In this document: one piece after another, positions 8,975 to 49,398 of the stretch
How positions within the stretch are numbered: position 1 is the stretch's first letter
Layout of the letters: every line of letters starts with the position of its first letter
NCBI GenBank assembly: GCA_020853775.1
Contig: JADYYH010000078.1
Span: 1 to 64,000 of the forward strand
Source: Nitrospira sp.
Lineage (GTDB): Bacteria; Nitrospirota; Nitrospiria; Nitrospirales; Nitrospiraceae
Direction: 5' to 3'
Length of the DNA stretch: 64,000 nucleotides
Program-made: the position numbers and the translations under genes
The notes under the pieces: generated by a model
The model's database searches: none
Told to the model about the DNA's origin: nothing
What the model saw: only the letters and a program-made list of their open reading frames with translations

Positions 8975-8984
8975 ACGGGAACGC

Positions 8985-22238: not shown

Positions 22239-22259
22239 CTGTCGGGCAAGAGGTGTCGC

Positions 22260-22772
22260 ATGAAAATCACTCCCATCGATATTCAGCAGATGGTGTTTCA
22301 GGTCAAGTTTCGAGGGTTTGACCGGGACGAAGTGAACCGCTTCCTCGAGGAGTTGGCGCTGACTGTTGAGAACTTGAATCGAGAGAACAGCCTGCTTCGC
22401 GAAAAACTCACCACCACCGAGCAGCAGGTGACCGACCTGCGACGCACGGAAGCGACGCTGTCCAATACGTTGGTGTCGGCGCAGACATTGGCCGAGGACG
22501 TCAAGCGATCCGCCCAACGCGAGGCCGACTTGATCGTGAAGGAGGCCGAACTGAAGGCGAGCGAGATTATCCGGCAGGCGCGCGTCAGCCTCACCGAGAT
22601 GCAGCGTGGCGTGGCAGATCTTCAGAAGCAGCGCTTGATGATGGTGGAGCGGTTTCGTTCCACCTTGCGTTCGTTTGAGCGTATGCTGGAAGTCGAAGAG
22701 AGCGACGCATATCAATCGGAGGGCTCTTCCGTCGAAGGCAAGCTCGCCGGCGAATCCAACCCTGCGCGTTGA
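22260..22772 (+). CDS. divIVA: DivIVA domain protein
   Basis: Coiled-coil protein with an N-terminal DivIVA lipid-binding domain (ITPIDIQQMVFQVKFRGFDRDEVNRFLEE-like, residues 3-31) followed by long heptads to about residue 150. DivIVA proteins sense negatively curved membrane and organise poles or septa; in Gram-positives they follow yggT in the dcw tail as here. At 170 residues it is compact. A Gram-negative carrying this arrangement is also known from deltaproteobacteria. It has GAGGTGTCGC directly before the start. Confidence 0.85.
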   Translation: MKITPIDIQQMVFQVKFRGFDRDEVNRFLEELALTVENLNRENSLLREKLTTTEQQVTDLRRTEATLSNTLVSAQTLAEDVKRSAQREADLIVKEAELKASEIIRQARVSLTEMQRGVADLQKQRLMMVERFRSTLRSFERMLEVEESDAYQSEGSSVEGKLAGESNPAR

Positions 22773-22886
22773 GTCCCCTTCGTTCATCGGGAAGTCCACC
22801 CTTGCCCGCAAGCCTGAACCGGCGGACCGGCTCGTCCGCTCCCGACCTCCCTCTGCTACCCTGCATCACAGGTAGATCGCACAGTG

Positions 22887-24017
22887 ATGGCTATGAGTGA
22901 CCCAATACAGTCGGCGCTGCAAGCCGCCGTTGATGATGGAACATTTCCGGGCGCGGTCCTGGCGGTACGCTTGCGCGGGGATATCGTCTTCGAAAGCGCC
23001 GTCGGCCGGCTGTCACGTCAAGGGATGGCGGAAGCCGTCACGGTTCAGACCTGTTACGACCTGGCTTCCCTGACCAAAGTGCTCGCGACGACGACTGCGC
23101 TCGCCTTGCTGATGCAACGCCGACTCGTGAAGCTGGACGACTCCATTGAAGGCATCCTGCATGAATTGCGTGACAGCGCGATCGGAGCAGCGACGGTGCG
23201 GCAGCTGCTCACCCACAGTTCAGGTTTGCCCGGATGGCGACCCTTGTACGAACGTGTGGCCGCTCTCGAGGCGACTCAGCCGGGATTCATGGGCAGCCCT
23301 GCGGCGCGTGAGGCTGTATTGGGATTCATCGCCAAGGAAGAGTTGGTCTATGAGCGAGGTTCCCGCAGTCTGTATAGCGATCTGGGTTTTATGCTCTTGG
23401 GGTGTGCCGTGGAGCGGCTCTCAGGCGAAGCGCTCGATCAGTTCTGCAGCAGTCAGATCTACGAGCCGCTGGGCGCTCGCCCGTTGGCCTATGCGCGGCG
23501 CGGGCCGGTATCGGCCTTGTCCATACATCACGATGCAGGATGTATCATTGCTCCGACGGAGGAAGATCCGTGGCGGGGGCGCATCCTCTGCGGCGAAGTG
23601 CATGACGAAAATGCCTATGCGCTTGGCGGAGTCGCCGGCCATGCGGGGTTGTTCGGCACGGCTGGTGCGGTCCTGGCGGTCTCTCAAGCCTGGATGGACG
23701 GCCGACGAAAAAAAACCGGCTTGTTAACGCCCGACATCGTCAAGACCTTTACAGCGAACCGGCAGGGGGTCCCGAACTCCAGTTGGGCGTTGGGCTGGGA
23801 TACGCCGTCGGTGCGGTCGTCCTCAGGAACGCGTTTTTCCCCCGAGTCGTTCGGCCATCTCGGGTTCACGGGGACGTCACTGTGGATCGATCCCCTCAAG
23901 GAGCTGGAGGTGGTGCTCCTCTCGAATCGGGTTCATCCCACCAGGCGGAATGAACAGATCCGGGTCTTCCGGCCGCACATCCATGACGTCATTTGCCGGG
24001 AGTTACTGAGAAATTAA
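22887..24017 (+). CDS. Serine hydrolase of the beta-lactamase class C/esterase family
   Basis: Penicillin-binding-like fold hydrolase. The catalytic S-x-x-K is in YDLASLTKVLATT (Ser near residue 61), and the second-motif tyrosine is in LYSDLGFMLLG. HLGFTGTSLWIDP near the C-terminus replaces the KTG strand with the HxG variant found in esterases and the class C relatives EstB and AmpH. No signal peptide is seen, so a cytoplasmic or peripheral location is likely. Proximity to wall genes hints at muropeptide processing, but the substrate is unknown. The start is uncertain among 22884 (GTG), 22887 and 22893. The stop overlaps the stop of the opposite-strand gene. Confidence 0.8.
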   Translation: MAMSDPIQSALQAAVDDGTFPGAVLAVRLRGDIVFESAVGRLSRQGMAEAVTVQTCYDLASLTKVLATTTALALLMQRRLVKLDDSIEGILHELRDSAIGAATVRQLLTHSSGLPGWRPLYERVAALEATQPGFMGSPAAREAVLGFIAKEELVYERGSRSLYSDLGFMLLGCAVERLSGEALDQFCSSQIYEPLGARPLAYARRGPVSALSIHHDAGCIIAPTEEDPWRGRILCGEVHDENAYALGGVAGHAGLFGTAGAVLAVSQAWMDGRRKKTGLLTPDIVKTFTANRQGVPNSSWALGWDTPSVRSSSGTRFSPESFGHLGFTGTSLWIDPLKELEVVLLSNRVHPTRRNEQIRVFRPHIHDVICRELLRN

Positions 24018-33230: not shown

Positions 33231-33354
33231 GCCGTGACCGGTATCCTCTCTGCTGTTCGGATCACTTGCCGTCTCCATCGCCATCTGTCCGTCGGCAGCA
33301 GTGCATGATCTCCCTATGGTAGAGTGAATTATTCGCGGCACTTTGGGAGCCATC

Positions 33355-34560
33355 ATGACGACGCCACTTCGATTGCCTCTCTCACTCGCAGCGTTTGACC
33401 TATCTCCTGATCGCGGCTTTCTGCCTGCGACCGACCCGCTGGACCAGCTTCCTGACGAGCCGATCGTCAATCGGATCGGGACGGAGCTGCCGAAGTTGCT
33501 CACCGCCCGACAATTCCGCAATTGTATCCAGGATCGGTCGGAAATCATGGGCGCGGTGCCGGACGATTGGGGGCTCGATGTCTTTCGTTCTGCCATGCGG
33601 ACGCTGTCGTTTGCCGGCCATGCCTATGTGTGGGAGAACCCAGACTCTCCGGCTGACAGATTGCCGGCTAGTATCGCTGTCCCTTGGTACCGCATTGCGC
33701 AGCAACTCGGTCGTCCGCCCGTCCTGTCGTACGCCTCCTATGCGTTGCACAACTGGCGCCGGCTCGATGTGCACAAGCCGATTGCGCTGGGCAACATCGT
33801 GCTCCTCCAGAATTTTCTCGGCGGGCTCGATGAAGAATGGTTTGTGTTGATCCACATTGATATCGAGGCGAAGGTCGGCCTGGGGTTGCAGGGATTGGTT
33901 CATGCGCAGAATGCCGCACAGGCGGATGATGCGGAAGCCGTGTTGGCCGGGTTACAGGCGCTCGCCGTCGCGCAAGAGGCGATGCGGGAGACGCTCCTTC
34001 GGACGCCGGAACGATGCGACCCCTACATTTATTACAGTCGCGTGCGACCCTATATCCATGGATGGAAAAACAGTCCGTCATTGCCACAGGGGGTGATCTA
34101 CGAAGGGGTCACGGACTACGCTGAACGGCCGCAACAATTCCGCGGAGAAACCGGCTCGCAAAGTTCCATCGTGCCGGCGCTGGATGCCGGCCTTGGTGTT
34201 GTCCATGCCGACGATCCGCTGACGCAATACCTGGTGGAGATGCGTGACTATATGCCGCCGCGCCATCGCGCGTTTGTGTCCGCGCTGGAAGCCCGTATAG
34301 ACGGGCAACAGCGCCCATTGCTCTATGGATATGCTCGCGATCGTAAAGCGACGAATCCCCGATTATGGAAGGCGTTCTGCGCCTGCGTGGACCTGCTGGC
34401 CCAATTCCGCGACATTCATGTCGGCTATGCCGAACGGTATATCTTCCGCCAGCATCAGTCGCATGCCAGCAATCCGACCTCAGTGGGCACAGGTGGGACG
34501 CCGTTCATGCCTTATCTGAATAAACATCTCGAGGAGACCAAGCACCTCATCCAGGACTGA
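33355..34560 (+). CDS. Indoleamine 2,3-dioxygenase family heme protein
   Basis: Resembles indoleamine 2,3-dioxygenases, cytoplasmic heme enzymes that open the indole ring of tryptophan to N-formylkynurenine. Seen: SYASYALHNWRRLD (like the YADCVLANW region), VLIHIDIEAKVGLGLQG, YEGVTDYAERPQQFRGETG with QSSIVPALDAGLG (the substrate-site RGxxGxQSS segment), MRDYMPPRHRAFVSALE, and FRDIHVGYAERYIF with the expected proximal heme histidine. The C-terminal GTGGTPFMPYL matches the family GTGGT loop. The length is about 401 residues. ATG 33355 has GGGAG upstream. No kynurenine-pathway neighbour is present, so activity on tryptophan is inference; bacterial members may have other substrates. Confidence 0.8.
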   Translation: MTTPLRLPLSLAAFDLSPDRGFLPATDPLDQLPDEPIVNRIGTELPKLLTARQFRNCIQDRSEIMGAVPDDWGLDVFRSAMRTLSFAGHAYVWENPDSPADRLPASIAVPWYRIAQQLGRPPVLSYASYALHNWRRLDVHKPIALGNIVLLQNFLGGLDEEWFVLIHIDIEAKVGLGLQGLVHAQNAAQADDAEAVLAGLQALAVAQEAMRETLLRTPERCDPYIYYSRVRPYIHGWKNSPSLPQGVIYEGVTDYAERPQQFRGETGSQSSIVPALDAGLGVVHADDPLTQYLVEMRDYMPPRHRAFVSALEARIDGQQRPLLYGYARDRKATNPRLWKAFCACVDLLAQFRDIHVGYAERYIFRQHQSHASNPTSVGTGGTPFMPYLNKHLEETKHLIQD

Positions 34561-35074: not shown

Positions 35075-35713
35075 ATGGTATGGACGATTTGTACGCGCAG
35101 CTGGGTCCCGATAGTCGCCTCATTGTCACTGCTCCTTCTCGCTCCTGTCGCAACCCGGGCTGAATGGTATGCGGCTGCTCAGCTCGGCGTGAATTTCGCC
35201 GATCCCCTCCGCAATGTTCGCGGCAGCGGTTCCCTCGCCGGGTTGGAGGCGCCCAATTTCAATCTGAAAACCAGTCCTGCGTTCGGCGGCAAAGTGGGGC
35301 TGTTTCCCAATCACGGGATCCTGGGAATCGAATTGGATGTTTCCCACAGCACTCCGCACATCAAAAATCTGGACGATATCCCGGGCATTCATCTCTCCGT
35401 GACCAACATCGGCCCCAGCGTGGTCTTGCGGTATCCAGGCATGACCTGGCAACCCTATCTCGGAGGCGGGCCGGCCATCCTGGTCGCGCATCTTGGCCGA
35501 TCTTCAACCACGGAACGTGATACCCAAGTGTCGTTTGGGGCCAATGTGCTGGTCGGTGTGCGGGCGTTCGTCACGCCCAGGGTGGCGCTGTTTACCGAAT
35601 ATAAGTATACCGATTCGACGTTTCGTTTCGGCGGCGCGTTCGGGCCGGTTGGGGGATTCGACGGGACCTATCGAGCCCATCAGCTGTTCATGGGCCTGTC
35701 CTACCACTTTTAA
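35075..35713 (+). CDS. Outer-membrane beta-barrel protein
   Basis: Exported protein of 212 residues. Residues 1-29 are a signal peptide (SWVPIVASLSLLLLAPVATRA, cleavage before EW). The mature part shows alternating hydrophobic strands typical of an eight-stranded OmpA/OmpW-like barrel (WYAAAQLGVNFADPL; GGKVGLFP; SFGANVLVGVRAFVTPRVALFTEYKY) and ends in aromatic YHF, the outer-membrane assembly signal. ATG 35075 is chosen over 35060 because GGAG lies 9 nt upstream. Substrate and function are unknown. It precedes two lipoprotein genes, 10 nt from the first. Confidence 0.72.
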   Translation: MVWTICTRSWVPIVASLSLLLLAPVATRAEWYAAAQLGVNFADPLRNVRGSGSLAGLEAPNFNLKTSPAFGGKVGLFPNHGILGIELDVSHSTPHIKNLDDIPGIHLSVTNIGPSVVLRYPGMTWQPYLGGGPAILVAHLGRSSTTERDTQVSFGANVLVGVRAFVTPRVALFTEYKYTDSTFRFGGAFGPVGGFDGTYRAHQLFMGLSYHF

Positions 35714-35723
35714 GAGGCGTGTC

Positions 35724-36023
35724 ATGACGCGGTCCATCGTCTGGTTTTGTCTGGCGGGCATCCTGCTCTTCACGGCGGGATGTGCGGAGTCGTTGCATCA
35801 GGGGCAGCGACATGCAGGATGGAGTCACCGGTCGAATACCGGATATGCAGACGGATCAGCCTACGGGGGCGCAGGATATTGGTGGTACCCCTTCGGCTAC
35901 TATGGCCCTGGTTACGGGTGGTATGGAGGCGGCTACGGCGGAAGCCGACAATCGACGAGTGGGTCGGCGCATCGTCCAACGCCGCCGGATAACGCGCCGC
36001 CCCAGTTTCAGAAGCAGTATTGA
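35724..36023 (+). CDS. Gly/Tyr-rich lipoprotein
   Basis: A 99-residue lipoprotein precursor: signal peptide with lipobox LFTAGC (lipidated Cys about residue 18). The mature part is rich in Gly, Tyr and Trp (YWWYPFGYYGPGYGWYGGGY) and ends PPDNAPPQFQKQY. It is related to the next gene, which has the same plan and a similar C-terminus. Gly/Tyr/Trp-rich sequences suggest a flexible surface or adhesive role, or aromatic stacking; this is inference. It is likely co-transcribed with the beta-barrel gene. Confidence 0.65.
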   Translation: MTRSIVWFCLAGILLFTAGCAESLHQGQRHAGWSHRSNTGYADGSAYGGAGYWWYPFGYYGPGYGWYGGGYGGSRQSTSGSAHRPTPPDNAPPQFQKQY

Positions 36024-36044
36024 CTTGGAGAGGCGATCAACGTG

Positions 36045-36446
36045 ATGCACAGACGAAATGTAATTCCGCATGGAGCAGCCAGTATGCGCCTCAGCGCATG
36101 CGCCATAGCGTTCTGTGTGATGGCCTTGATGTCGGCCTGCGCCCAATCAGTGCATCAAACGCAACGGCTGGCCCAGCAAGACTTCATGCTCGATCCCGGA
36201 TATGCGGGCGCCCAACAGTACTCCTATTGGTCTGGGCCTGGGTACGGATATGGCCTTGGATACGGGGCCGGGTATTGGGGCGGGCCGCTGGGATACTATG
36301 GGTACGGTGGACCGTACGGCCCGCTGGGATTTGGCTGGTACGGTGGTTATGGGGGCTTCGGGGCAGGACGTTCACCAGGCGCTGTCTCGGGGCCACGTCC
36401 GACACCGCCGCCTCACGCGCCCCCGCAATTCAGGAAGAAGTACTGA
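36045..36446 (+). CDS. Gly/Tyr-rich lipoprotein, paralogue of the preceding gene
   Basis: A 133-residue lipoprotein precursor. After a long n-region the signal peptide ends in lipobox LMSAC; Met at 36084 (MRLSACAIAFCVMALMSAC) is a plausible alternative start. The mature part is dominated by Gly/Tyr repeats (GYGYGLGYGAGYWGGPLGYY) and ends PPPHAPPQFRKKY, parallel to PPDNAPPQFQKQY in the previous gene, indicating tandem duplication. Both proteins also share an SxHQxQR segment after the lipidated Cys. Function unknown. Confidence 0.65.
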   Translation: MHRRNVIPHGAASMRLSACAIAFCVMALMSACAQSVHQTQRLAQQDFMLDPGYAGAQQYSYWSGPGYGYGLGYGAGYWGGPLGYYGYGGPYGPLGFGWYGGYGGFGAGRSPGAVSGPRPTPPPHAPPQFRKKY

Positions 36447-37053
36447 GGAGCATTCTTGTGCCCGAACATGCACGGACGATGTGGCACGCATCAATTCTTA
36501 TACACTACATAGCCTTGAGAGCCGTCATTGATTTTCGCATAAGTGAGCACGATTGCTCCTGCAGGCTCTGTGTATCCGATTCAATACTGCTGTATCTGCT
36601 TTGAAAAGGTTGTAATTCTGCCGGCCATCACATTCATTGCCCTCCACATCGACACCATTGCCTCTTCCCCCTCTTCTCGGAATGCGAGAGGCCAGGAGAT
36701 TCTAGGCCGCACCAAGCAACCGGACGGCGCGTCGATCTACGTAATACGTACAGACACGAGTTTGGACCATTCATTGGCGTTGTGTCTTGGTTGACTGATA
36801 CGCATCTGCTTGGCAAGCCTCCTGCATTAACTCTTTTCGTGTTCTGATCTCTGCCAACTGTGCAGCGATTCAGTGGTGGGTGTTTTTCCAATTTCGCGAT
36901 GCGATACGTTCTGGGATGGCAGGGGGGAATTGAGTCGAGTAGGTCACCGTCGATGATGCATCGTGAAGATTATCTGCAAAGCCTGTGATGTAAGCGTCCC
37001 CGACGATGCCGTGTTCGGGCTTATCGAGATTTCGCGGTGGAGGAGGATTCATT
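36447..37053 (+). other. 607-bp non-coding region ahead of the giant oxidase gene
   Basis: No convincing gene is seen; short open frames lack ribosome sites and family features. Structures seen: hairpin GAGCA (36545-36549) with TGCTC (36554-36558); two palindromic hexamers TACGTA (36738-36743 and 36745-36750) one base apart; and a -24/-12-like sequence at 36810-36826. GGAGGAGG (37038-37045) is the ribosome site of the following gene. The length suggests separate regulation of the copper-oxidase operon. Confidence 0.5.
36810..36826 (+). promoter_or_regulatory. Sigma-54-like -24/-12 promoter candidate
   Basis: TTGGCAAG-N4-CTGCA has GG and GC exactly 10 bp apart, as sigma-54 promoters require, with two departures from the consensus (CACG to CAAG; TTGC to CTGC). 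It points toward the oxidase gene, which starts about 228 nt downstream. The leader would be long, and an enhancer site is not identified. Confidence 0.3.
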
Positions 37054-40000
37054 ATGGTGAGGCATTGTCGAATGGCAGTGGGCAGCGCGCTTCTGGCAAC
37101 ACTCGCGATCACCGGGCCGGCTGGTGCTCAACCCCAGGCGACCTCTCCATCTGTCGCAAAAGAGCAGCAGGCATCGCATCGTGTCGTTCGCCCGCCGGTC
37201 TCTGTTCGGAAGAAGCCGGATGTAGCAAGGGTCAAGCCTGGAATCACTCTGCCGGTGACGTCTTGCCCAGCCAACGCGCTTCACGCGGATGTCGTGGCGA
37301 TCGATCATCCCATGGTATTCAACCGTCTCGGTGCGCAGAACGTCAACTGGATGATGTACGCACTTCGGCATGATGTAAGACGTGTTTCAAAAAACGACAG
37401 AGGGGAAGAGGTCTACGAGTCGTTAGGCACGTCGGACGATGATCCGAAGTGGCACACGCTTTTGCGGGACCTGCGGCGTGACCGCTCGGGCTTCCTTGAC
37501 CAATCCGCTCGCTGGGGCAGTGCACAGCTGATACTCCGGCCTGACTTGAGACCTCGACCGTTGGTGTTGCGAGTGCCGGCCGGCGGGTACTTGCGAGTCC
37601 ATTTTACCAACCTGCTGGAACAGCTTGCTGTGCCGCCGCACAACCATCCAGGAAATCCCTTTGATAAAGATCTGACAGGGTTTCCGCAGGACCACCCCAT
37701 GGCGAAGAGACCTCCCATAAAAATTGACGATCAGGTTGCCAGCCGGGTTGTGGGATTCCACCCGCAAGGGCTGGAGTTGGTTCCCATAACGGATCTCACA
37801 GGAAGTCACGAAGGCATGCACAGTGATTCTTCCTACGTGGGACACAATGCAGACAGTATGGTCAAGCCGGGGCATTCCACGGACTATTGCTATTTTGCTC
37901 CCACAGAAGGCGGCTATCTTGTCACCAATTCAGGCGCGGTATTTGGTGGAGAAGGTACTGCAGGCGATAGTGGCGTGGGACTGTTTGCTGTCGTCGCGGT
38001 GGAGCCTCAACGAGGGAAAGCCTATCGCGCGCAAGTGACCGAGGAAGAAATGAGATTGGCCACTCGGGGCCACACGTCCACGGGGCAGCCTATTCTCAAT
38101 TACGAGGCGACCTATCCGAATGATTGCGTGACCAACGGGGTGTGGTGCCAAGAGGGGAAGGCCGGGGCTCCGATACTCAACATGGTCCAGAACAACCGGA
38201 TCGTCCATGGAGACATCAATGCCATTATCGTCGGGCCCAACGCAGATGGATCGTTCCCACGCGACACGTATCCCATCGAAAGAGACGATACTCCGACGAA
38301 CCCGATCCCTGCGCGCAATCCGACTCTTCCGAATCGGCTGGAGCCGTTTCGAGAGTTTGTGTCGGTCTTTCACGATGAAAACGCAGCGACTCAATCGTAT
38401 CCCTACTTCTTCGAGCATCCGGAATTGGGGCATACGCTGCACGGCGTCCGCGACGCGTTTATGATCAACTACGGATCAGGAGGGATTGGCGCGGAGATCA
38501 TTGCAAACCGGCTCCATTCAGGACCCATGCACGACTGCTTGGATTGTGCCTATGAGGAGTTCTTCTTGAGTTCGTTCGCCGTGGGTGATGCGGCCATGAT
38601 CGTAGACCAGCCGGCGAACATGGAAACGTACCAATGTCAGCCGGAATTTCTCCCCACCCCGGAGGAAAAGGCAGCCGGTACATGGCCCAATAAAGCCAAA
38701 TTCGACGTGTTCTGTGTGCAGAAGACGTGGGCGACCGAAGCTTACTATCCCCACGATCCGGCGAATCTCCACCACAGTTATATCGGTGATTTCGTCAAAT
38801 TCCGGAACGTCCACTCCGGAAAGGAGCAGCACATCTTCCATCTTCACAATCATCAGTGGCTGTTCAACCCCAATGACGACAACTCGAATTACATCGACGC
38901 GCAGGGCATCGGCCCAGGGTCCGGCTATACCTATGAGATCGCGTTCGGCGGCTCCGGCAATCGGAACAAGACCGTCGGCGATGCCATTTTTCACTGCCAC
39001 TTCTATCCGCATTTCGCCCAAGGCATGTGGTACATGTGGCGCAATCACGATGTGTTTGAAGCAGGCACACGCCTCGCCGTCAGTGATGCGGGGGACGAGA
39101 AGGCCCCAAAAGAGAAGCAGTATCATAAGAAACCTTTCGGGCTGATGCGCGGCCTGCCGTCTCCAGGGGCCCGGGCGTTACCGGATGGCGAGATCGTCGC
39201 GGGCACCCCCATTCCTGCGATCGTGCCGCTCCCAGGGAAGGGCTTGGCTCCCATGCCCTTACCCGTTAGGGTTGAACCGCGCCAGGGAGATGACGGTAAA
39301 ACGCATGGCTCATTCGCGAAAGTGTGTCCTGGTGTGATTGATCGCGTGACAGGGAAGTGCCAAGAGACGACATTGGGGCCGCACGAGAATCCGGGATTCC
39401 CGTTCTGGGTGGCCGGGGTTTCTCAGCGAGATGGACATACCGACGATCTCGTCTCCATGGGATCCCGCCCGACGACTCCGCCGTTGGATATGGAGCCATC
39501 AGCCGGAGGACACAACGGAGGACTTCCTCGACATGCCTTGGCCGGCTATTCGGCGGGAGGGCACGATCACTCGGAGATCACCAGGCTCACGGCGGCCAAG
39601 GAGATCGACCACGCGAAACCCGTGTATTATGAAGAACGCGGCACGGCGCTCGAGCGCGTGGCGATGCAGTTTCACGCGCAACGCATTCATCCAACCAGCA
39701 AGTTCGACCTCAATGGTGTGCCATCGCCCGGTGAGTTCCTGACCAATGGAGCTCCTCCGACACCTGGCGCTCCCTTCAATGATCCCTGTATCGACGACGA
39801 AGGCACGCCTCTGCGCAGTGGGCGACATGGGCTGTTCTTTGGAGGACGATACGGAAAGTATTTTTCATCGGGTCAGGACCTCCCAGATGGAATCGAATTC
39901 GGCGGCGATCACCCTCGTGTATATAAAGGCGCGAATCTACAGTTGGATGTCGTCTTCAATAAGCTCGGGTATCACTATCCGCAGCAGCGCATCCTGACGC

Positions 40001-43000
40001 TCTGGGAAGACGTTCCGGCTCTGCTGATGAGGACGCGGCCTCCCGAGCCGCTCGTGTTGCGCATGAATACCTATGATTGCGCAAAGTATGAACATACCAA
40101 TTTGGTCCCCAAGGAATTCTATCTGGATGACTATCAGATCACGACACCCACCGATGTGATCGGGCAGCATATACATCTGCCAAAATGGGATCTCACGGCG
40201 GCCGATGGGGGCGCCAATGGGTTCAATTATGAGGACGGAACCTTCGCTCCTGGAGCGGTCCGCGAGCGGATTCATGCCATCAATGCATGGAACAAGAAAC
40301 AAGTTGACGATAAGAAGATGCCGGTTCATCCGCTTGACGGGACTACGGCCCCACTGGTGCCGGCCGCTCATCCATACTTTGGAAAAGATCCGGTCTTTCA
40401 CGGCGGGGCGGTGGTGCTGCAGCTCACCGAGAAGGAATGTGCAGAAGCCTGGGCGAGCGCGGCATCGTTTAAAGAGTTTGAGCGAGAGTGGGGCATTCCC
40501 GGGAAATGCGACTGGTTCGGTGCCCGGACGACTATTCAGCGGTGGTTTTCAGATCCAGTCGTGAATCGGGAGGCGATCCACCGGGGTCTCGGCATCACCT
40601 TTACGCATGACCACCTCGGACCATCGACGCATCAGCAGCTGGGGCTCTATGCGACGATGCTGACCGAGCCGCCTGGCTCCCACTGGCGGCACAATGAAAC
40701 CGGTCAAGTCCTCTATGACCCGGCCGCCCGGAAGGATGGGGGCCCCACATCGTGGCAAGCCGTCATTACAGGGAAGAATGGCCGAGCCATCGATGTCGAT
40801 CGTGATAAGCACGATGATTCGCACCGTGAATTTTTTCTGCAGTTTGGCGATTTTCAGCATGCGTATGAAAAGGGGGTGTTCGTCGGAGTAGACGATGGAG
40901 GCAAACCTGTCAATGAACAGGGCACCACGGAGGAGAAGTTGGAGTTCGTCAAAGTCGACTCAGCGGCTGTTCACTCGCGGCTTCCTCTGCGCGAAGCGTT
41001 CCGGCACGCGATCAACCCCTCGTATAGGAAGCCCGCGGAGAAAAGGAATTCAGCGGATCCGTCTGAGGTGGCCGTCGACATCTTCAGCTATCGACCCGCC
41101 TGCCCTGGGGGCGCGGCGAATGAGGATGAGCCAAGAGCTCCTCAGGTGGCGTACGAAAGAAAAACTGCGCCCACTCGCCCCTGCCCCGAAGCGATCTCGG
41201 CGGACGATGTCGGCATGATGGTCGTGAATTATCGGAACGAACCGATTGGGGCCAGGGTGTATGACTCGAACGCGATCGGACATGACCGTAAGAAGGGCGC
41301 ACAAGCCCTGGGGCAGGCTGGTGATCTTGACCTGGCCATGACCACCAGGACGGATCGGGCGCTCGGCGTGCTCAATGGGATCGGAGGAGAAGACCCGAGT
41401 GTGCCGGGCACGCCCCCGCACTATCCGCGTGATGTGAACCGGCATCGACTCAAGGGAGATCCGTATACGCCGATCATGCGCGCCTATTCGGGGGATCTCA
41501 TTCGCGTCAAGGTCCAGGCCGGTTCACATGAGCACGAGCACAATGGATCGATCAATGCCATCGGGTGGATCCAAGGCGGGTCTGGATTTGGGCAGGCGCC
41601 GCATTCCGGCTGGCGAAACGCCCAGAATACGGGTCTGTCCGAGCAGTTTACGTTTTTGACGCACATTACCGACTACTGGAGCGATACGTTCCTGAATGAT
41701 CGGATGTATGCCATCGATACGAGCCAGGATGGGCTGTGGAATGGTGTCTGGGGCATCCTCCGGAGCAAGTCCAAATTGGATGCCAACGATATGTTGGTCA
41801 GACTCCCCAATAATCCCGTTCCCACCGTGCTGCAACCGGAAGCAGGTCTGGGGAAAGACAATGTCTGCCCCAAACATGCCGAGGTTCGCGAATATCACAT
41901 TGCGGCGGTTTTGGCGAACCGTGCGCTGACGAACTCATTGGGAGTGACGATCCCTTCTGCGAGGAACTCAGCGTATCCCTCTGAATTGTCCCGCTTGGAT
42001 CAGGGCGGTGGGACGCTGGTGTATAACCCGCGGCCGACCTCGATTACGATCGTCGTGAAAGATGAGGACGGAAAGGTCGTTCGTACCGAGTCATTCGGGA
42101 CTGGGCCGCTCCATGATCCAACGGCGATTGTATTCGTGCGCGAATCTGATCTGGACCCGCAGGGGAAACTCAAGTCTGGGATGCCGCTGGAGCCGCTGGT
42201 GTTGCGGGCGGCAGCGGGGGACTGTGTCCAAGTCGTCTTGCACAATCGCTTGCCGAAAGGTCGCCGCAATATGCCGGACTTGGATGGCCTCACCTCACTG
42301 TCCGGCATCATTCACCGGGACGATCACGATTCGAGTGGATCTGTTACGACCTTCAACAACAACCTGATTCGCCCCTCCAATCGAATTGGGCTGCATCCCC
42401 AATTGCTCCACTACAATGTCCACACCTCAGACGGCAATAATATCGGGGTGAATAAGATCAGTACGATTCGTCCCGGCGAGCACCATGTGTATCAGTGGTA
42501 TGCGGGGGTGCTCGAACCGCCGTCGATGTCTGATCCCTGTCCGACTCCCGTCTCTCCCCGCATGCTCCCGCGCGCATATGAGTGGCTCAAATTGTTTCCG
42601 CGGCTGGCGCTGAAGGGCGAACGGCCCACTCGGTCGCCGGCGCAAGTGCTGACGAAGGCTGCTTTCCATGAACGGGTGCTGGCCGCACTCGATCCCGACT
42701 ATCTCGAAAGCGGGGCTGTGAAGATTGCGAACGTGACTGAAGTGGTGCATGCGCTCACCAAAGCGGCCGAAGGTGCCAAATTGTTTGTCGCGGAGCAGGT
42801 GGTGGATAGGCCGCAGCAGGCTGTAAGCCACGATTCGAGACCGGGCGGATCCAGACTGAGCGGACTGTTCGGGCGCCAGTCCATCACGTCTCCGGCTGCG
42901 GCAGCCACGGGGCGGGATCGTTTCAGTACACTCATGAACAAGCTCGAACGCCCCAACTTCACCGACAAGGAACGGCAGGCGTTGGCGGACGGGGTGCCGT

Positions 43001-44313
43001 TGCTGGGTCGCGACGCGTATCTCGATACCGTCTCCATCTTTGAAAAAATGACCACGACGAATATCGCGCTCATAGACGAGCACGTCGCGAAGCGGATCAA
43101 GGACCTGACGACGCTGTTTAGCCGGATCAGTGAACCGTTCAAGCTCAATGTAAGTCCAGAGATGCCCAGGCGGCTGGCCGAAAGTCTTTTCTTTGAATCG
43201 CTGGAGTATCCCACACAAGCGAGCTATCGCTGGTGGGAGCAGATCTTCTCAGATCTTGATCTCAACCTCTCTCCGGACGTCATTCGTGTCGTCCAATTGT
43301 CCGGGGCAGCCTGCCGGTATATACCAGTCGAATTCGGCGGGACGAACCTCACGCCGCCGGACCGCATCAAACAGGGCCAGAAAGCTGCGGTTGGGGCATT
43401 GGTGGTCGAGCCAGAACGCTCTTTCTGGATCGAACACATCGATGATTCGGCCAGTGACCGACAAACATTGCCGATGAACAGCGCCAATGATCGAGACAGC
43501 CGCGCGACCGCATTCGTGTTTTACCCGGTAGATGGAATAACTCGCTTCTTCCGTGATGTCGTCCTGGTGCATCAGAAAGGACTGAACCATCGCTATAAAG
43601 ATGGTTCCGCTGTCGCCACTCTCGCAGCGGAGAAAGAGCGCGCTGGTGAACACCTCTCGAACACCGCGCCAGAGGATGCGCATGACTCGGGACATATGGC
43701 CGTCAATTATGGCACTGAACCGAAATGGTTCCGCTTCGGATTACCTCCTGATGCCCCATTCGGCAGAGAGGGGTTCGGAGGAGTCGAGCATGCCTGGCAA
43801 GGGTTTAGTGAGCACTGTTGTGCTAACGGTGGGACGGCGACCACAGCCGCCCATCCGGTGGGGTCTGCCTACGTTCCCACCGTCTCTGTTCCTGCTGGCC
43901 ATGAGCTACGGCTACGAGCATTGCTCCCCACGGGTATCGGGCGGGCAACCGTATTCTCACTCCATGGTCATAACTGGCCACGTGATCCATATCTCGCTGA
44001 GCATACCTCTGGGAAACATCCTGTCGGATTTCGTCCTGCTGAGTGGGGCGTACCCTCGAAATGTATCGGCGACAATGCATTGCAGATGGGCTTGGGTGGC
44101 CAGGAAAGCCTCACCCCGATGGCGCATTTCGACGAGGTGCTGAAGTCGGCAGGGGGGCGACATGCGGTGACGGGCGACTACCTGTGGCAAGACCACGGAG
44201 GCTTTGGGATCACAAGTGGGGCTTGGAGCATCGTACGGGTCGAGCCCAGCGCACGCTCGCACAATCCCTTCTTCAAACCTACGGGACTTCGATCGTCATG
44301 TCCAGCGTCGTGA
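37054..44313 (+). CDS. Giant exported multicopper oxidase (2,419 residues)
   Basis: Secreted or periplasmic copper protein built from several cupredoxin units. A signal peptide (1-25, ALLATLAITGPAGA, cleavage before QP) begins it. The first unit has a full set of copper motifs: H196-N-H198 (PPHNHPGN), H256 region (GMHSDSSY), H593-I-F-H596-L-H598-N-H600 and H647-C648-H649 with H653 and M658 (HCHFYPHFAQGMW), so type 1 and trinuclear sites look complete. Later units keep partial motifs: H1039-I-H1041, H1185-D-H1187 (HDHLGPSTHQQLGLY), HEHEH at 1492-1496, GVWGILR at 1564-1570, HNVH-like 1786-1790 and SLHGHNW at 2302-2308. The size and the HIH and HDHxGPSTHQQ motifs recall MofA/MnxG-type Mn(II) oxidases; the substrate is not provable here. 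GGAGGAGG lies 8 nt before ATG 37054. Its end overlaps the next gene. Confidence 0.88.
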   Translation: MVRHCRMAVGSALLATLAITGPAGAQPQATSPSVAKEQQASHRVVRPPVSVRKKPDVARVKPGITLPVTSCPANALHADVVAIDHPMVFNRLGAQNVNWMMYALRHDVRRVSKNDRGEEVYESLGTSDDDPKWHTLLRDLRRDRSGFLDQSARWGSAQLILRPDLRPRPLVLRVPAGGYLRVHFTNLLEQLAVPPHNHPGNPFDKDLTGFPQDHPMAKRPPIKIDDQVASRVVGFHPQGLELVPITDLTGSHEGMHSDSSYVGHNADSMVKPGHSTDYCYFAPTEGGYLVTNSGAVFGGEGTAGDSGVGLFAVVAVEPQRGKAYRAQVTEEEMRLATRGHTSTGQPILNYEATYPNDCVTNGVWCQEGKAGAPILNMVQNNRIVHGDINAIIVGPNADGSFPRDTYPIERDDTPTNPIPARNPTLPNRLEPFREFVSVFHDENAATQSYPYFFEHPELGHTLHGVRDAFMINYGSGGIGAEIIANRLHSGPMHDCLDCAYEEFFLSSFAVGDAAMIVDQPANMETYQCQPEFLPTPEEKAAGTWPNKAKFDVFCVQKTWATEAYYPHDPANLHHSYIGDFVKFRNVHSGKEQHIFHLHNHQWLFNPNDDNSNYIDAQGIGPGSGYTYEIAFGGSGNRNKTVGDAIFHCHFYPHFAQGMWYMWRNHDVFEAGTRLAVSDAGDEKAPKEKQYHKKPFGLMRGLPSPGARALPDGEIVAGTPIPAIVPLPGKGLAPMPLPVRVEPRQGDDGKTHGSFAKVCPGVIDRVTGKCQETTLGPHENPGFPFWVAGVSQRDGHTDDLVSMGSRPTTPPLDMEPSAGGHNGGLPRHALAGYSAGGHDHSEITRLTAAKEIDHAKPVYYEERGTALERVAMQFHAQRIHPTSKFDLNGVPSPGEFLTNGAPPTPGAPFNDPCIDDEGTPLRSGRHGLFFGGRYGKYFSSGQDLPDGIEFGGDHPRVYKGANLQLDVVFNKLGYHYPQQRILTLWEDVPALLMRTRPPEPLVLRMNTYDCAKYEHTNLVPKEFYLDDYQITTPTDVIGQHIHLPKWDLTAADGGANGFNYEDGTFAPGAVRERIHAINAWNKKQVDDKKMPVHPLDGTTAPLVPAAHPYFGKDPVFHGGAVVLQLTEKECAEAWASAASFKEFEREWGIPGKCDWFGARTTIQRWFSDPVVNREAIHRGLGITFTHDHLGPSTHQQLGLYATMLTEPPGSHWRHNETGQVLYDPAARKDGGPTSWQAVITGKNGRAIDVDRDKHDDSHREFFLQFGDFQHAYEKGVFVGVDDGGKPVNEQGTTEEKLEFVKVDSAAVHSRLPLREAFRHAINPSYRKPAEKRNSADPSEVAVDIFSYRPACPGGAANEDEPRAPQVAYERKTAPTRPCPEAISADDVGMMVVNYRNEPIGARVYDSNAIGHDRKKGAQALGQAGDLDLAMTTRTDRALGVLNGIGGEDPSVPGTPPHYPRDVNRHRLKGDPYTPIMRAYSGDLIRVKVQAGSHEHEHNGSINAIGWIQGGSGFGQAPHSGWRNAQNTGLSEQFTFLTHITDYWSDTFLNDRMYAIDTSQDGLWNGVWGILRSKSKLDANDMLVRLPNNPVPTVLQPEAGLGKDNVCPKHAEVREYHIAAVLANRALTNSLGVTIPSARNSAYPSELSRLDQGGGTLVYNPRPTSITIVVKDEDGKVVRTESFGTGPLHDPTAIVFVRESDLDPQGKLKSGMPLEPLVLRAAAGDCVQVVLHNRLPKGRRNMPDLDGLTSLSGIIHRDDHDSSGSVTTFNNNLIRPSNRIGLHPQLLHYNVHTSDGNNIGVNKISTIRPGEHHVYQWYAGVLEPPSMSDPCPTPVSPRMLPRAYEWLKLFPRLALKGERPTRSPAQVLTKAAFHERVLAALDPDYLESGAVKIANVTEVVHALTKAAEGAKLFVAEQVVDRPQQAVSHDSRPGGSRLSGLFGRQSITSPAAAATGRDRFSTLMNKLERPNFTDKERQALADGVPLLGRDAYLDTVSIFEKMTTTNIALIDEHVAKRIKDLTTLFSRISEPFKLNVSPEMPRRLAESLFFESLEYPTQASYRWWEQIFSDLDLNLSPDVIRVVQLSGAACRYIPVEFGGTNLTPPDRIKQGQKAAVGALVVEPERSFWIEHIDDSASDRQTLPMNSANDRDSRATAFVFYPVDGITRFFRDVVLVHQKGLNHRYKDGSAVATLAAEKERAGEHLSNTAPEDAHDSGHMAVNYGTEPKWFRFGLPPDAPFGREGFGGVEHAWQGFSEHCCANGGTATTAAHPVGSAYVPTVSVPAGHELRLRALLPTGIGRATVFSLHGHNWPRDPYLAEHTSGKHPVGFRPAEWGVPSKCIGDNALQMGLGGQESLTPMAHFDEVLKSAGGRHAVTGDYLWQDHGGFGITSGAWSIVRVEPSARSHNPFFKPTGLRSSCPAS

Positions 44314-46235
44314 GGTACGCCATCTGTTGTGCGACGGGCGTAGCCCTGCTTTTCGGAGCAGGGCCCTCGGTCCTGCACGCGAGCTATCTCAATAAAACGA
44401 TCGAGCGGGACGGGCTTCGGATTCAGTTTTCGATCGATCCCGTGGCGGAGCAGTATGCTCGGGACGCGCTCTACGCCGATCAGCTGGTCCGGATTCGGAT
44501 GGCCATTACGCGTGAGGCCGATGGCCACCCGCTGAATAATTGGAATGTCGGCGCATGGTTGGATCGAGCGATGTCCGCCGCCTCCGGGGCCATGCCGGCC
44601 TGTGCCCAACGTGTTGCCGGTTACCTGGGCGGTGATCTGTTACAACGCCCGTTGTTGGACCTCACCGGGTACTATGTGTTGACCTTGGATGCCGAGCCCA
44701 GTGTCTCAGTGCTCGATCCCGCCGTGAGTTTCGCCGGTCGCAGCAGTCTGTATGGGGCCCTCAAGCTCAAAGGCCGAGGGTTCGATTGGGTGAAGACGTC
44801 CGACGACGCGAAGTTGTTCGTGGGCTTGGCGGAGGAGCCTGCCGTTGCGATTGCTGATCTCCAAACCTTCCAGGTTCTGACGCATGTCGCTCTTCCCGGG
44901 CTTCCCACGCGATTAGCCCTTGCTCCCGATGAACGGTTGCTATGGGTGGGGCACATCGCGGCCACGAAGACCGGGCAGCAGGATGGGGTCACCGTTATCG
45001 ATACGGTGACGAATCACGTGGTGACGAGCCTGCCTCTCCCGGGCGGCCATCACGAATTCGCTTTCAGTGAAGATGGGCGGTACGTGTATGCGACCAGCCG
45101 GCGTGCCGGCACTGTCACCGTACTCGATGCGGCGATGTTCTCCATCGTCCGCACGATGACGGTTCCGGGCGAGCCGATGAGTATGGTGAGTACTCCCTCC
45201 AACGGTCTCCTCTGGGTCGTTGACGGCAAGCATGGACGGGTACATCGGTATTCCGCACAAGGCTTGCCGATCGATAGCATCGCCCTCCAGCCCGGGATCG
45301 GACCCGCGAAGCTCTCGCCGGATGGACGCTATGTGCTTGTGGCCAATCCGAGCCAACATCGTGTCAGTGTACTGAACGCGGCGACCGGTCGGCCGGTGCA
45401 TGCCATCACGGTATCGGGAAAGCCATATGACATCATATTTTCCGGCCAATATGTGTACGTGCGCAATCTTGAGAGCGAGCAGGTGGCGCTCATTTCGATC
45501 GCAGCGCTCGAGCGGCCCAACCCCATGCCTCAATACATTCCTGCTGGGTCAGGTATCCTCGCCCAGGCCAAAGAAGGATTGCCGATCGCGTCAACGATGG
45601 GACTCACGCTGAACAAAGGCGGGGCCTTCCTGGCCTCTCCCACAGAGCGTACGGTCTATCACTATATGGAAGGGATGAATGCCCCGGACTCCGGTCTGCG
45701 CGCCTACGGTCATACTCCGATGGCGGCCCTTGCCATTCAGAGAGGCCTGCGGCAAGTTGGCCCTGGCGAATATTCCGCTATCGTCAAACTGCCTTCGGCA
45801 GGACGCATGGTCTTGGCGATCGCGAGTGACGCCCCGCAACTACGGGAGTGCATCGGCTTACACATCGAGCGGGCACCCGCTACCCTAGTCTCGCAACGAG
45901 TGGCGTTCGAGTGGCTGGGCGGTCCCGTGGCCCGTGCCCTGGTCGGACAACCCATTACACTACGGGTGCGCCTGAAAGAGGGGGCACAACCGGACGATCA
46001 CGTGCTGAATCGGTTTGAACTGTTCGTCGTCCCGGCCAGGGGAGGGCGCAGTGCCCGGTGGCCTCTCCGGACTGATGAACATACCGCAGGCCAGTTGATT
46101 GGTGAGGGGACACTCTCGGAACCGGGAGGGTATTATGTCCACATTCTCGGGTCCCAAGCCGTGGAGGCGACGTTTTCAACGCTGGTGGTTGAATCTGCAT
46201 CCTCAGCGACTGCTCGCCCCGGTGGCCCGCCATGA
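44298..46235 (+). CDS. Exported YVTN-type beta-propeller protein
   Basis: A 645-residue exported protein. Signal peptide 1-29 (AICCATGVALLFGAGPSVLHA). The central part (about 130-420) has repeated propeller blades such as DGRYVYATSRRAGTVTVLDA and DGRYVLVANPSQHRVSVLNA, the YVTN/lactonase-like pattern; the N-terminal region and the C-terminal 200 residues form separate beta-rich domains (ITLRVRLKEGAQPDD, EPGGYYVHI). Such propellers often act as assembly scaffolds or partners of periplasmic redox enzymes. The start lies 16 nt inside the oxidase gene and the stop overlaps the next start (ATGATG), so coupling is likely. Its role in the locus is inference. Confidence 0.78.
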   Translation: MSSVVRYAICCATGVALLFGAGPSVLHASYLNKTIERDGLRIQFSIDPVAEQYARDALYADQLVRIRMAITREADGHPLNNWNVGAWLDRAMSAASGAMPACAQRVAGYLGGDLLQRPLLDLTGYYVLTLDAEPSVSVLDPAVSFAGRSSLYGALKLKGRGFDWVKTSDDAKLFVGLAEEPAVAIADLQTFQVLTHVALPGLPTRLALAPDERLLWVGHIAATKTGQQDGVTVIDTVTNHVVTSLPLPGGHHEFAFSEDGRYVYATSRRAGTVTVLDAAMFSIVRTMTVPGEPMSMVSTPSNGLLWVVDGKHGRVHRYSAQGLPIDSIALQPGIGPAKLSPDGRYVLVANPSQHRVSVLNAATGRPVHAITVSGKPYDIIFSGQYVYVRNLESEQVALISIAALERPNPMPQYIPAGSGILAQAKEGLPIASTMGLTLNKGGAFLASPTERTVYHYMEGMNAPDSGLRAYGHTPMAALAIQRGLRQVGPGEYSAIVKLPSAGRMVLAIASDAPQLRECIGLHIERAPATLVSQRVAFEWLGGPVARALVGQPITLRVRLKEGAQPDDHVLNRFELFVVPARGGRSARWPLRTDEHTAGQLIGEGTLSEPGGYYVHILGSQAVEATFSTLVVESASSATARPGGPP

Positions 46236-46852
46236 TGCCGAGCGCACATGTTTTCGCATTGGGGTGTCTTCTTGCCGGCTGTCTGAATATCGCCGGTGTG
46301 ACCTGGCCGGTAGCCACGGCAGAGTCCCGCGAAGGGTCGGTCCTTGGCCGGCCCTCCGGGCTGTCCAGCGATACAGACAAAGTGACGTTACCAACCGTAC
46401 CGCTCGTTGATCAGGACAGTCAGGCACAGCGGATGGATCGTTTGTTAGAGGGACGAACGGTGGTGATTGATTTTGTGTATACCAGCTGCAAAACGAGTTG
46501 TTCGATTCTGAGTGCGATCATGGGACAAGTCGAGCAGCGGGTGCGCGATCGACTGGGCGACCACCTTTTGCTGGTATCTCTGACGGTTGATCCTGCTCAT
46601 GATACGCCGGCCCAGCTGAAAGAGTATGCGGCAAAATTTTCTGCCACGCCGCATTGGCATTGGCTGACCGGATCGATGCCGGATGTGAAACAAGCCCTTC
46701 GGGCGTTTGGTATTCCAGTGGTCGGCAGGCCGGAAGATCATGCTCCGGTGATCCTGGCCGGTAATGTTCGTACTGGGAAATGGCAGCGTTGGATCGGTAT
46801 TCCCGATCCGGATGTCGTTGCCAGGGCGGCACAGAACCTTTCGAGCGAGTAA
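46232..46852 (+). CDS. SCO1/SenC family copper chaperone, first copy
   Basis: Exported thioredoxin-fold protein of 206 residues, family SCO1/SenC, which delivers copper to or maintains thiols in copper oxidases. Signal sequence about 1-30, possibly a lipoprotein type given LLAGC at residues 13-17. The copper ligands are present: Cys pair in FVYTSCKTSCSIL (CxxxC) and the distal His in GRPEDHAPVIL. SLTVDPAHDTPAQLKEYA matches the family. It overlaps the propeller gene by 4 nt and precedes a second SCO gene by 7 nt. Confidence 0.86.
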   Translation: MMPSAHVFALGCLLAGCLNIAGVTWPVATAESREGSVLGRPSGLSSDTDKVTLPTVPLVDQDSQAQRMDRLLEGRTVVIDFVYTSCKTSCSILSAIMGQVEQRVRDRLGDHLLLVSLTVDPAHDTPAQLKEYAAKFSATPHWHWLTGSMPDVKQALRAFGIPVVGRPEDHAPVILAGNVRTGKWQRWIGIPDPDVVARAAQNLSSE

Positions 46853-46859
46853 TGCGCTT

Positions 46860-47480
46860 ATGTATCGATCGAGTATGTTGAGACGCTGGTTGGGGTTCTG
46901 TCTGGCAGGGATAGCCGTCTGCGTGGTTCTTCCTCTTGCTGACGTTGCGCAAGGGGTCGAACAACCGACCTCTCAGGACGAGTCACGCGTCGAACGGGCT
47001 CGCACCTACTTCGGTGACGGTGAACTGTTCGACCAGGACGGTGTTCGACATCGCTTCTTCAGCGACCTGCTGCATCCTCATGTGGTGCTCATTAATGTCG
47101 TATTCACCGAGTGCAGAGATGCCTGCCCTCTGATCACGAAATTGTTGGGGCAGGTGAAGGACCGTTTTGGTGATACGTTTGGTCGTGAAGTGCTATTCTT
47201 ATCGCTTTCATCCGATCCGTTCCGGGATACGCCGGGTACTCTGAAGGCCTTTGCGAAGAAGCACCAGGCCGATCACTCTGGCTGGCGCTTTCTTTCTGCT
47301 GAAATGGATGTGATGAAGCCGCTCCTGAGCCGGCTTGGACAGTGGGCCGATGATCCAGCTGACCACCAGTCCCTCCTGCTTGCCGGGAACGCCTCTCGAT
47401 CTCACTGGGTCAAAATTCGGCCTGATGCCACTCCGGACTTTATCTACGCGGAACTGCAACGTTTGGCTGCGACACCGTAG
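46860..47480 (+). CDS. SCO1/SenC family copper chaperone, second copy
   Basis: A second exported SCO protein of 206 residues, with signal peptide or membrane anchor about 7-30 (WLGFCLAGIAVCVVLPLADVA). Ligands: CxxxCP in VVFTECRDACPLITKLL and His in DPADHQSLLLAG. It shares FxSLSSDPFRDTPGTLKAFA with the first copy but is clearly divergent, so the two may load different copper sites or split thiol reduction and metal delivery. ATG 46860 or 46875 could be the start. The downstream cytochrome gene begins 16 nt later. Confidence 0.86.
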   Translation: MYRSSMLRRWLGFCLAGIAVCVVLPLADVAQGVEQPTSQDESRVERARTYFGDGELFDQDGVRHRFFSDLLHPHVVLINVVFTECRDACPLITKLLGQVKDRFGDTFGREVLFLSLSSDPFRDTPGTLKAFAKKHQADHSGWRFLSAEMDVMKPLLSRLGQWADDPADHQSLLLAGNASRSHWVKIRPDATPDFIYAELQRLAATP

Positions 47481-47496
47481 CTTTTCCTGCAGTGCC

Positions 47497-48885
47497 ATGT
47501 TGCATCGTACACTGCTCGCTATGTGTTTTGTCATTGGGGGCCTGGTTTCCTATGCAAGCGCCGAAACACCTGAGTCGGCACTCGGTCGTCGTATTTTTGA
47601 ACAAGGCATTGGGCGTGACGGCAGACAGATCGGAGGACGTATTCATGGCAATGTTTTTATGCGAGGACAAGCTGTTGCGTGTGCCGCTTGTCATGGGAAA
47701 GACGCACGTGGTGGGGGGGAGGCGTTTGTCCGAGCTCCGGATATCCGCTGGCATACACTGAATAAGCCGTTTGCCCCACGCCGCGCCGGTCTGCCGCGGC
47801 CTTCTTATGACCAGGCAACCTTTGCACGCGCGATTCAGCAGGGCATTGCGTCGAATGGTGTGCAACTGGAACCCGCAATGCCCCGGTTTGACCTGAGTCA
47901 GGATGAAACCGCGGCACTCGTTCGTCATTTGCAAACTGGGGAATGGTTGCCAGACGGCGAGGTCTCGTCCAAGGTTGTGCTGGGGCTCTTACCGGCTTCT
48001 CAATCTGAGCGATGGGCTCAAGAGCTGGGTGATCGATTACATTCCTGTCCGTCGTCTGATTCCCTTGCCGGTTTTCCGCCACTCGAAATCATCCCCTATA
48101 CAGATCCTCCGGATGCCTTGACCAAGCTGGCAGCTAAAATTTCAGAGGGCCGTGTGTCGTACATCCTGGCCCCTTACATCGCGGGATGGGAGGATCAATA
48201 TTTCGAGGCTGCTCGTGATTGGCCGGTTCCCTCCCTGCTTCCTGTCACTCCACTTGATTCTCCCGCCCATCCGAACTTCACCTTTTCACTTCCCGGGCTG
48301 GGAAGTCAGGTCGTCTCGCTGCTCGAGCGAGGTGTTTCTGGCCGATATGACGTCCTGACCGTCGTGAGATCCGAGGGCGATCTACTCTCGCGGGAAATGT
48401 TGAAAGTCGTCCGACGCGAGGCGAGGATGCGCAACGTACGTCTCGACGAAGTCACACTTGAACGTTCCCATTCAATCGAAAAATGGGCTCTGTGGTTGAT
48501 ACTGGCTCCGTTGGACAACGTGGCAAAGCAGCTGCGCAACGTGAGGCATAAAGTTAATCGAACGGCTCTTGTGCCAGCCATGTTTTTTGATCCTGCGGCG
48601 GCACGCCGGATCGAGAAGCAAATGCCGGGAATCGCCTGGCAGATTGCTTATCCATACGTGCCCGTCAACACCCGAACCGGGCGATGGCGCAGTCCTTTAG
48701 AAGCTTGGGCTGAAGCAGGGTGTGCACTGCTGGCGAAGATCGGAGAAGAACATCCAGGCGGTGTGTCCGGTCAGTCTTCCATCGTGTTGGAAAGTGGGCT
48801 TACGCTCTCCAATGCCCATGACGATATGAGTCGCCGTAGGCAGGTGATCGTAGCACCGTGGGAGCAGCGAAAAGCTCTGCAATAG
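47497..48885 (+). CDS. c-type cytochrome fused to a periplasmic-binding-like domain
   Basis: Exported 462-residue protein. Signal peptide 1-25 (LLAMCFVIGGLVSYASA). Residues about 30-150 form a single-heme class I cytochrome c: C62-A-A-C65-H66 binds heme and M128 (EPAMPRF) is a plausible axial ligand. Residues about 165-450 lack heme motifs and look like a type 1 periplasmic-binding or receptor fold (VVLGLLPASQ, ISEGRVSYILAPYIAGWE, SLPGLGSQVVSLLERG, TALVPAMFFDPAAA). The pairing would let ligand sensing or docking occur beside electron transfer. It is the last gene of the putative copper-oxidase operon. The fold of the second domain is inference. Confidence 0.75.
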   Translation: MLHRTLLAMCFVIGGLVSYASAETPESALGRRIFEQGIGRDGRQIGGRIHGNVFMRGQAVACAACHGKDARGGGEAFVRAPDIRWHTLNKPFAPRRAGLPRPSYDQATFARAIQQGIASNGVQLEPAMPRFDLSQDETAALVRHLQTGEWLPDGEVSSKVVLGLLPASQSERWAQELGDRLHSCPSSDSLAGFPPLEIIPYTDPPDALTKLAAKISEGRVSYILAPYIAGWEDQYFEAARDWPVPSLLPVTPLDSPAHPNFTFSLPGLGSQVVSLLERGVSGRYDVLTVVRSEGDLLSREMLKVVRREARMRNVRLDEVTLERSHSIEKWALWLILAPLDNVAKQLRNVRHKVNRTALVPAMFFDPAAARRIEKQMPGIAWQIAYPYVPVNTRTGRWRSPLEAWAEAGCALLAKIGEEHPGGVSGQSSIVLESGLTLSNAHDDMSRRRQVIVAPWEQRKALQ

Positions 48886-48927
48886 CGGCGAGAGGCAAAG
48901 GGAGGTTGAGGCTGGCTACGGATATGT

Positions 48928-48957
48928 TTGACAGTCTTTCTGGCCCTGTGCTATTTT
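48928..48957 (+). promoter_or_regulatory. Promoter of the rpsF-ssb-rpsR operon
   Basis: TTGACA (48928-48933), an 18-bp spacer and TATTTT (48952-48957). It lies about 80 nt upstream of rpsF and 43 nt after the cytochrome gene, marking the end of the accessory block. Confidence 0.5.
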
Positions 48958-48999
48958 TCCCAGCTCATGTCGGCTGGTCCGGCATGCCTACACCTCGCT

Positions 49000-49014
49000 C
49001 CCGTCTATGATGGG
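49000..49014 (+). other. Leader hairpin before rpsF
   Basis: CCCGTC (49000-49005) pairs with GATGGG (49009-49014), with one G-T pair and a 3-nt loop, ending 11 nt before the AGGAGGAA ribosome site. Ribosomal operons headed by rpsF often carry an S6:S18-binding leader; whether this is one is a guess. Confidence 0.25.
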
Positions 49015-49038
49015 GGCCAATGTCCAGGAGGAATCTGC

Positions 49039-49398
49039 ATGGAGCTCTACGAGTCCCTGTTCATTATTCGTCCGACTTTAAGCGACGAAGAAACGACGGC
49101 GTTGATTGAGAAAATGAAGGGCACCGTCACCAAGAACGGCGCCACGATTGTGCGGGCCGAGAATTGGGGCCGCAAGAAGCTCGCCTATGAAATCAAGCGC
49201 GAGCGGAAGGGCACCTACGTCTACTTTTATTTTCAGGGCCCCGGCACGACGATCGCCGACCTGGAGCGGGCGTATCGGCTTGAGGATTCGATCATCAAGT
49301 TCCTCACCGTGAAATTGGAACAAGAGCCTGCTCCGCCCAGGGGCGCGCCTGTGGCCGCACCAGCCGCACAAGGAGCGACCGTTGGCGGGGTTCAATAA
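49039..49398 (+). CDS. rpsF: Small ribosomal subunit protein bS6
   Basis: 30S protein that binds 16S rRNA with bS18. YESLFIIRPTLSDEE, the RAENWGRKKLAYEIKRERKG strand and LEDSIIKFLTVKLE are typical. ATG 49039 with AGGAGGAA upstream gives 119 residues, with a Pro/Ala-rich C-terminal tail (from about residue 97). The 3' end overlaps the ssb start by 17 nt. The rpsF-ssb-rpsR order is widely conserved. Confidence 0.95.
   Translation: MELYESLFIIRPTLSDEETTALIEKMKGTVTKNGATIVRAENWGRKKLAYEIKRERKGTYVYFYFQGPGTTIADLERAYRLEDSIIKFLTVKLEQEPAPPRGAPVAAPAAQGATVGGVQ

Follow-up and report, generated by a model that had tools for sequence, protein, structure and literature searches.

A candidate mnxG-type manganese-oxidation operon beside rpsF in Nitrospira

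Described mnxG and Mof systems and the Nitrospira operon

The mnxG operon of Pseudomonas putida GB-1 encodes an oxidase, a 40-residue YVTN propeller, two successive SCO1/SenC proteins, an ABC binding protein with a cytochrome c domain, and SurA (PMC11409713 Table 4; PMC8218464 Fig. 2c). Prokaryotic six-domain copper proteins reach 2,681 aa, and another has 2,493 aa (PMC3600357). Nitrospira MAGs from the inoculum of a sand filter have already been reported to carry MnxG, and a role in Mn removal was suggested (PMC12070406), and putative Mn oxidases have been described in other nitrifiers (PMC11995701).

We analysed a 64,000-nt stretch of Nitrospira sp. DNA, referred to below as the window. Its forward strand carries five open reading frames at positions 37054-48885, joined by overlaps of 16 nt and then 4 nt, followed by gaps of 7 nt and then 16 nt. 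The operon and its leader contain the following features:

36811..36826, + strand: weak sigma-54-like site TGGCAAGCCTCCTGCA with 2 mismatches, in a leader partly common to congener G210
37054..44313, + strand: P0001, six-domain multicopper oxidase of 2,419 aa, a long member of the MnxG family (NF041487 MnxG, 1,966 bits)
44298..46235, + strand: P0002, exported YVTN-type beta-propeller, 645 aa (TIGR02276 and YncE-like matches)
46232..46852, + strand: P0003, SCO1/SenC protein, 206 aa (PF02630, E 7e-19)
46860..47480, + strand: P0004, second SCO1/SenC protein, 206 aa (PF02630, E 1.8e-10)
47497..48885, + strand: P0005, mono-heme cytochrome c with a type-1 periplasmic binding protein-like domain, 462 aa

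A sequence-only reading of this DNA had described five exported proteins encoded by tightly packed genes, and the coordinates, overlaps and gaps are all as it claimed. Each of the five proteins starts with a hydrophobic signal-like segment, read off the sequence and not by a prediction program. The ATG of P0001 is preceded by a strong ribosome-binding-like GGAGGAGG. The operon is more than a chance arrangement, since the same five genes recur in the same order in many phyla. For the sigma-54-like site TGGCAAGCCTCCTGCA a shuffle test gave p 0.03, and in G210 the block around it is nearly identical; across the window 27 such sites were found against 29.7 expected, which is the chance level. A sigma-54 promoter and regulation by MnxS/MnxR belong to the P. 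putida type of operon; possible control of the Nitrospira operon by sigma-54 is weakly supported.

The P. putida GB-1 operon shares with the Nitrospira operon its first five genes, their order and predicted types, the oxidase family and the export of the redox proteins. The gene set and the oxidase size, both taken as undescribed in the sequence-only reading, thus have precedents in GB-1 (PMC11409713, PMC8218464) and in the listed copper proteins of 2,493 and 2,681 aa (PMC3600357). Differences are also apparent. The GB-1 oxidase has 1,944 aa as compared to 2,419 aa in P0001, and over aligned columns P0001 shares 49-51% identity with Pseudomonas copies, from which it differs by a poorly conserved insert of ~244 aa at residues 1829-2072. 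The SurA-like sixth gene of the P. putida operon is absent here, where rpsF comes next instead. No mnxS or mnxR genes were noted beside the Nitrospira operon, and the host belongs to Nitrospirota.

The partners of Bacillus MnxG are MnxE and MnxF, which are without counterparts among the five genes of the window. The Bacillus oxidase itself (PDB 9bxa) resembles P0001 in its collinear domain correspondence and motif order but is 1,227 aa long. The Mof operon of Leptothrix discophora and Rubrivivax sp. A210 also combines a large oxidase with a neighbouring cytochrome c gene, and the Rubrivivax sp. A210 oxidases sit in the same tree as P0001; mof differs in its gene content, which includes a mip-like mofB. 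What was known before is the gene set, the giant oxidase size and MnxG in Nitrospira MAGs; what goes beyond the earlier reading is the comparison of loci at the same site.

The oxidase and its partner proteins

P0001 matches the NCBIfam MnxG model (NF041487) across nearly its whole length. The score of 1,966 bits lies under the equivalog cut-off of 3,100 bits, which is set for Pseudomonas-type MnxG; for comparison, a Stutzerimonas copy scores 3,679, Rubrivivax A210 2,152 and Methylomonas 2,041 bits. A Pfam search of P0001 gave no family. When a profile of its relatives was compared to Bacillus MnxG (9bxa), the full length aligned in largely collinear blocks. The copper motifs of P0001 follow the Bacillus order, with HxxHxH and HCHxxxHxxxxM first and two HxH later. 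Likeness to MnxG over the full length and the copper motif order C-D-A-B are features of the MnxG/Mof superfamily of six-domain Mn-oxidase-like proteins, and P0001 has both.

The predicted type-1 copper ligands are H593, C648, H653 and M658, and those of the trinuclear site are H596, H598, H647, H649, H1039, H1041, H1185 and H1187. All 12 ligands are present in P0001 and invariant in 74 of 74 aligned relatives. The copper site is read from the alignment because an AlphaFold model of residues 66-1265 with 15 relatives reached a pLDDT of 44 and was discarded. The complete first copper centre noticed earlier is thus joined by a trinuclear site that also appears complete. The idea that the genes form an operon-like module for copper redox chemistry, akin to the MnxG/Mof systems and with a predicted intact copper site, is borne out, as is its placement in a Nitrospirota host. 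Further multicopper oxidases, weakly related to MnxG, are encoded in the same genome (G000, contigs C17, C35, C68, C81 and C119); three of them are open frames of about 1,590-1,734 aa.

Among the partner proteins, P0002 consists of a YVTN/YncE-like propeller plus an additional C-terminal part. P0003 and P0004 both match SCO1-SenC, and each keeps CxxxC and a later DH; the N-terminus of P0003 is lipobox-like. P0005 has one CxxCH heme motif (CAACH, 62-66) and Met128, and C62, C65, H66 and M128 are invariant in 18 sequences. Its AlphaFold model has a pLDDT of 82, and Foldseek matches suggest that the fused domain resembles Leu/Ile/Val-type (type-1 periplasmic) binding proteins.

Distribution of the cassette

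A scan of GTDB genomes resulted in 80 named loci. The order oxidase-propeller-SCO-SCO-cytochrome recurs in Nitrospira, Nitrosomonas, Methylomonas, Lysobacter, Xanthomonas hortorum, Pseudomonas (including Pseudomonas sagittaria), Rhodocyclaceae, Anaeromyxobacter and others. Several distant relatives hold part of the cassette, for example the propeller only in Methanoperedens. Genomes in which the oxidase lacks these neighbours had been named as evidence against the proposed module; they occur among some distant relatives such as Methanoperedens but not in the long-MnxG clade of P0001, where all five genes are found at each locus that is covered by sufficient sequence. Some lineages known mainly for anaerobic life have MnxG-like oxidases too (L112, L116, L124, L131 and L133; Methanoperedens, Pelobacter, Geobacter and Jettenia).

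In the oxidase tree P0001 groups with two Nitrospira-family copies (support 100) within an 18-row long-MnxG clade (support 100) that brings together Nitrospira, Nitrosomonas, Lysobacterales and Methylomonas. Copies from Pseudomonas and Rubrivivax are placed outside it, and the tree of the propeller P0002 splits off the same set. The cassettes of Nitrosomonas, Methylomonas, Lysobacter and Xanthomonas hortorum are similar to that of the window in having oxidases of 2,262-2,482 aa, about 58-63% identical to P0001 over aligned columns, and the five-gene order; they differ in belonging to another phylum and lying at other genomic sites.

In AU tests, a single clade of all tested Nitrospirota MnxG copies was disfavoured (p 0.024), and a clade uniting the long-clade Nitrospira copies with the separate copy L110 was rejected (p 1e-34). 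Monophyly of Nitrospira inside the long clade was not rejected, with p 0.247 for the oxidase and 0.092 for the propeller. Because the one-clade constraint is disfavoured, MnxG in Nitrospirota probably has more than one origin. Other Nitrospira contexts were also seen. In another lineage, cas6, cas1 and csm6-like genes flank the long-MnxG cassette (L065 at 6560-9559 and 21577-22896; L069 likewise), and in L047 (15381-19375) and L068 (5031-9000) its neighbours are genes for a MacB/FtsX-like permease and a dihydroorotate dehydrogenase.

The site before rpsF, its history and the function of the operon

The surroundings of the operon were compared among 29 congeneric genomes (site survey loci including L143-L155), using the following features:

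36042..36446, + strand: left flank, Gly/Tyr-rich small exported ORF, outside the operon
36447..48923, + strand: cassette interval, absent or occupied by another oxidase cassette in congeners
48928..49398, + strand: right flank, rpsF, outside the operon (PF01250, E 4.7e-31), with the true start probably downstream of TTG

Of these genomes, 21 are empty at the site before rpsF, seven have a divergent giant-oxidase cassette there and one, that of the window, has MnxG. No other oxidase of the P0001 type occurs among these 29 genomes of the genus, and five further congeneric genomes have a giant oxidase at other locations. Between the upstream indoleamine 2,3-dioxygenase (IDO)-like gene and rpsF lie about 0.7-2.3 kb in the 21 empty genomes and about 13.8-15 kb in seven genomes, the window among them; in G304 rpsF adjoins the second cassette on a short contig. 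The IDO-family gene itself (33343-34560; PF01231, E 1.6e-83) is present in 28 of the 29 congeners and is unexpected in a nitrifier. Two small Gly/Tyr-rich exported ORFs (35694-36446) beside an outer-membrane beta-barrel gene are conserved at the cassette site.

In the loci compared, homology on the left side ends at 36439-36448 (36998 in G210) wherever the last small ORF is present; on the right side it begins again at 48924-48978. That these ends meet gene ends was not counted as evidence by itself, because intergenic DNA diverges fast; we claim only that the same intergenic interval is concerned.

The second cassette (L052, L055, L143 and others) occupies this locus in seven congeners and comprises an oxidase, a propeller, one SCO and a cytochrome fusion. 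Its aligned oxidase copies have the same 12 ligands. It differs from the MnxG cassette in its single SCO gene and in an oxidase about 31-36% identical to P0001; the G304 oxidase is 42% identical over a short piece. Representatives form two separate lineages in the oxidase tree, G171 and G261 versus G210.

In-place replacement is the simplest reading of the history of the site, because the nearest relative of the window carries the other cassette. In the flank-gene tree the window is sister to G299 (93% DNA identity), a holder of the second cassette, and G306 and G210, both occupied by other cassettes, come next. A shared leader of 442 bp, 67% identical (E 1e-19), also links the window to G210. 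It is possible, if somewhat unlikely, that MnxG was instead inserted independently into an empty site, or that the other cassette was lost before MnxG was inserted. With 21 of 29 congeners empty and occupied branches interspersed with empty genomes, such a history is conceivable, but the occupied sites of G299, G306 and G210 and the leader shared with G210 argue against it. Under in-place replacement, the MnxG cassette would have replaced a divergent giant-oxidase cassette at the conserved site beside rpsF, by recombination through the conserved flanks.

It is likely that the five genes are a Nitrospira-family mnxG manganese-oxidation operon; both Mn(II) oxidation and in-place replacement of the cassette are inferred. 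The best function for P0001 would be that of an extracytoplasmic Mn(II) oxidase with O2 as acceptor, as suggested by its family membership; for the SCO proteins, the propeller and the cytochrome fusion, the domain types suggest the roles. The exported oxidase would take electrons from Mn(II) singly at the type-1 copper and pass them to O2 at the trinuclear site, so that Mn(III/IV) oxide would form on the extracytoplasmic side. Both SCO proteins may serve in copper loading or thiol redox, and the propeller and the cytochrome c/binding-protein fusion may be partners in assembly, electron transfer or sensing.

The same operon family could have another physiological substrate, such as Fe(II), Cu(I) in detoxification or an organic or phenolic compound, with Mn oxidation absent or incidental. 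P0001 is placed with MnxG by sequence alone, multicopper oxidases are promiscuous (PMC11995701 warns of substrate promiscuity), and for the broader family in Methanoperedens, Jettenia, Geobacter and Pelobacter O2-dependent Mn oxidation is no obvious lifestyle. MnxG of GB-1, the member of the family for which there is genetic evidence, nevertheless oxidizes Mn, and the complete accessory set is retained here; we regard another substrate as unlikely.

It is very improbable that this nitrite oxidizer gains energy from Mn(II), with electrons diverted from the MnxG system to the respiratory chain by way of the cytochrome c fusion, and that Nitrospira lineages use the site before rpsF to exchange metal-oxidase cassettes to suit local electron donors. 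An amoA search, bearing on comammox status, gave no match; the Nitrosomonas genome of L101, meant as positive control, was blank as well. Foreign DNA joined to a Nitrospira contig by assembly or binning is an extremely improbable explanation: the locus comparison rests on assemblies, the genome of the window has 121 contigs and 4.56% contamination, and one of 29 congeners has this cassette, but Nitrospira flanks lie on both sides, GC is like that of the flanks, the leader is shared with G210 and related cassettes exist in other Nitrospira-family genomes (L047, L068, L065 and L069).

In drinking-water filters manganese is removed alongside nitrification, and a direct part of Nitrospira in Mn oxidation is so far a proposal (PMC12070406). 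The operon is a complete, intact candidate for Mn oxidation in Nitrospira, with all predicted copper ligands, and its cassette is common to two nitrifier groups, Nitrospira and Nitrosomonas. The probable swap at the same site with a divergent giant-oxidase cassette offers a natural comparison of close genomes that differ in the oxidase they carry or are without any.
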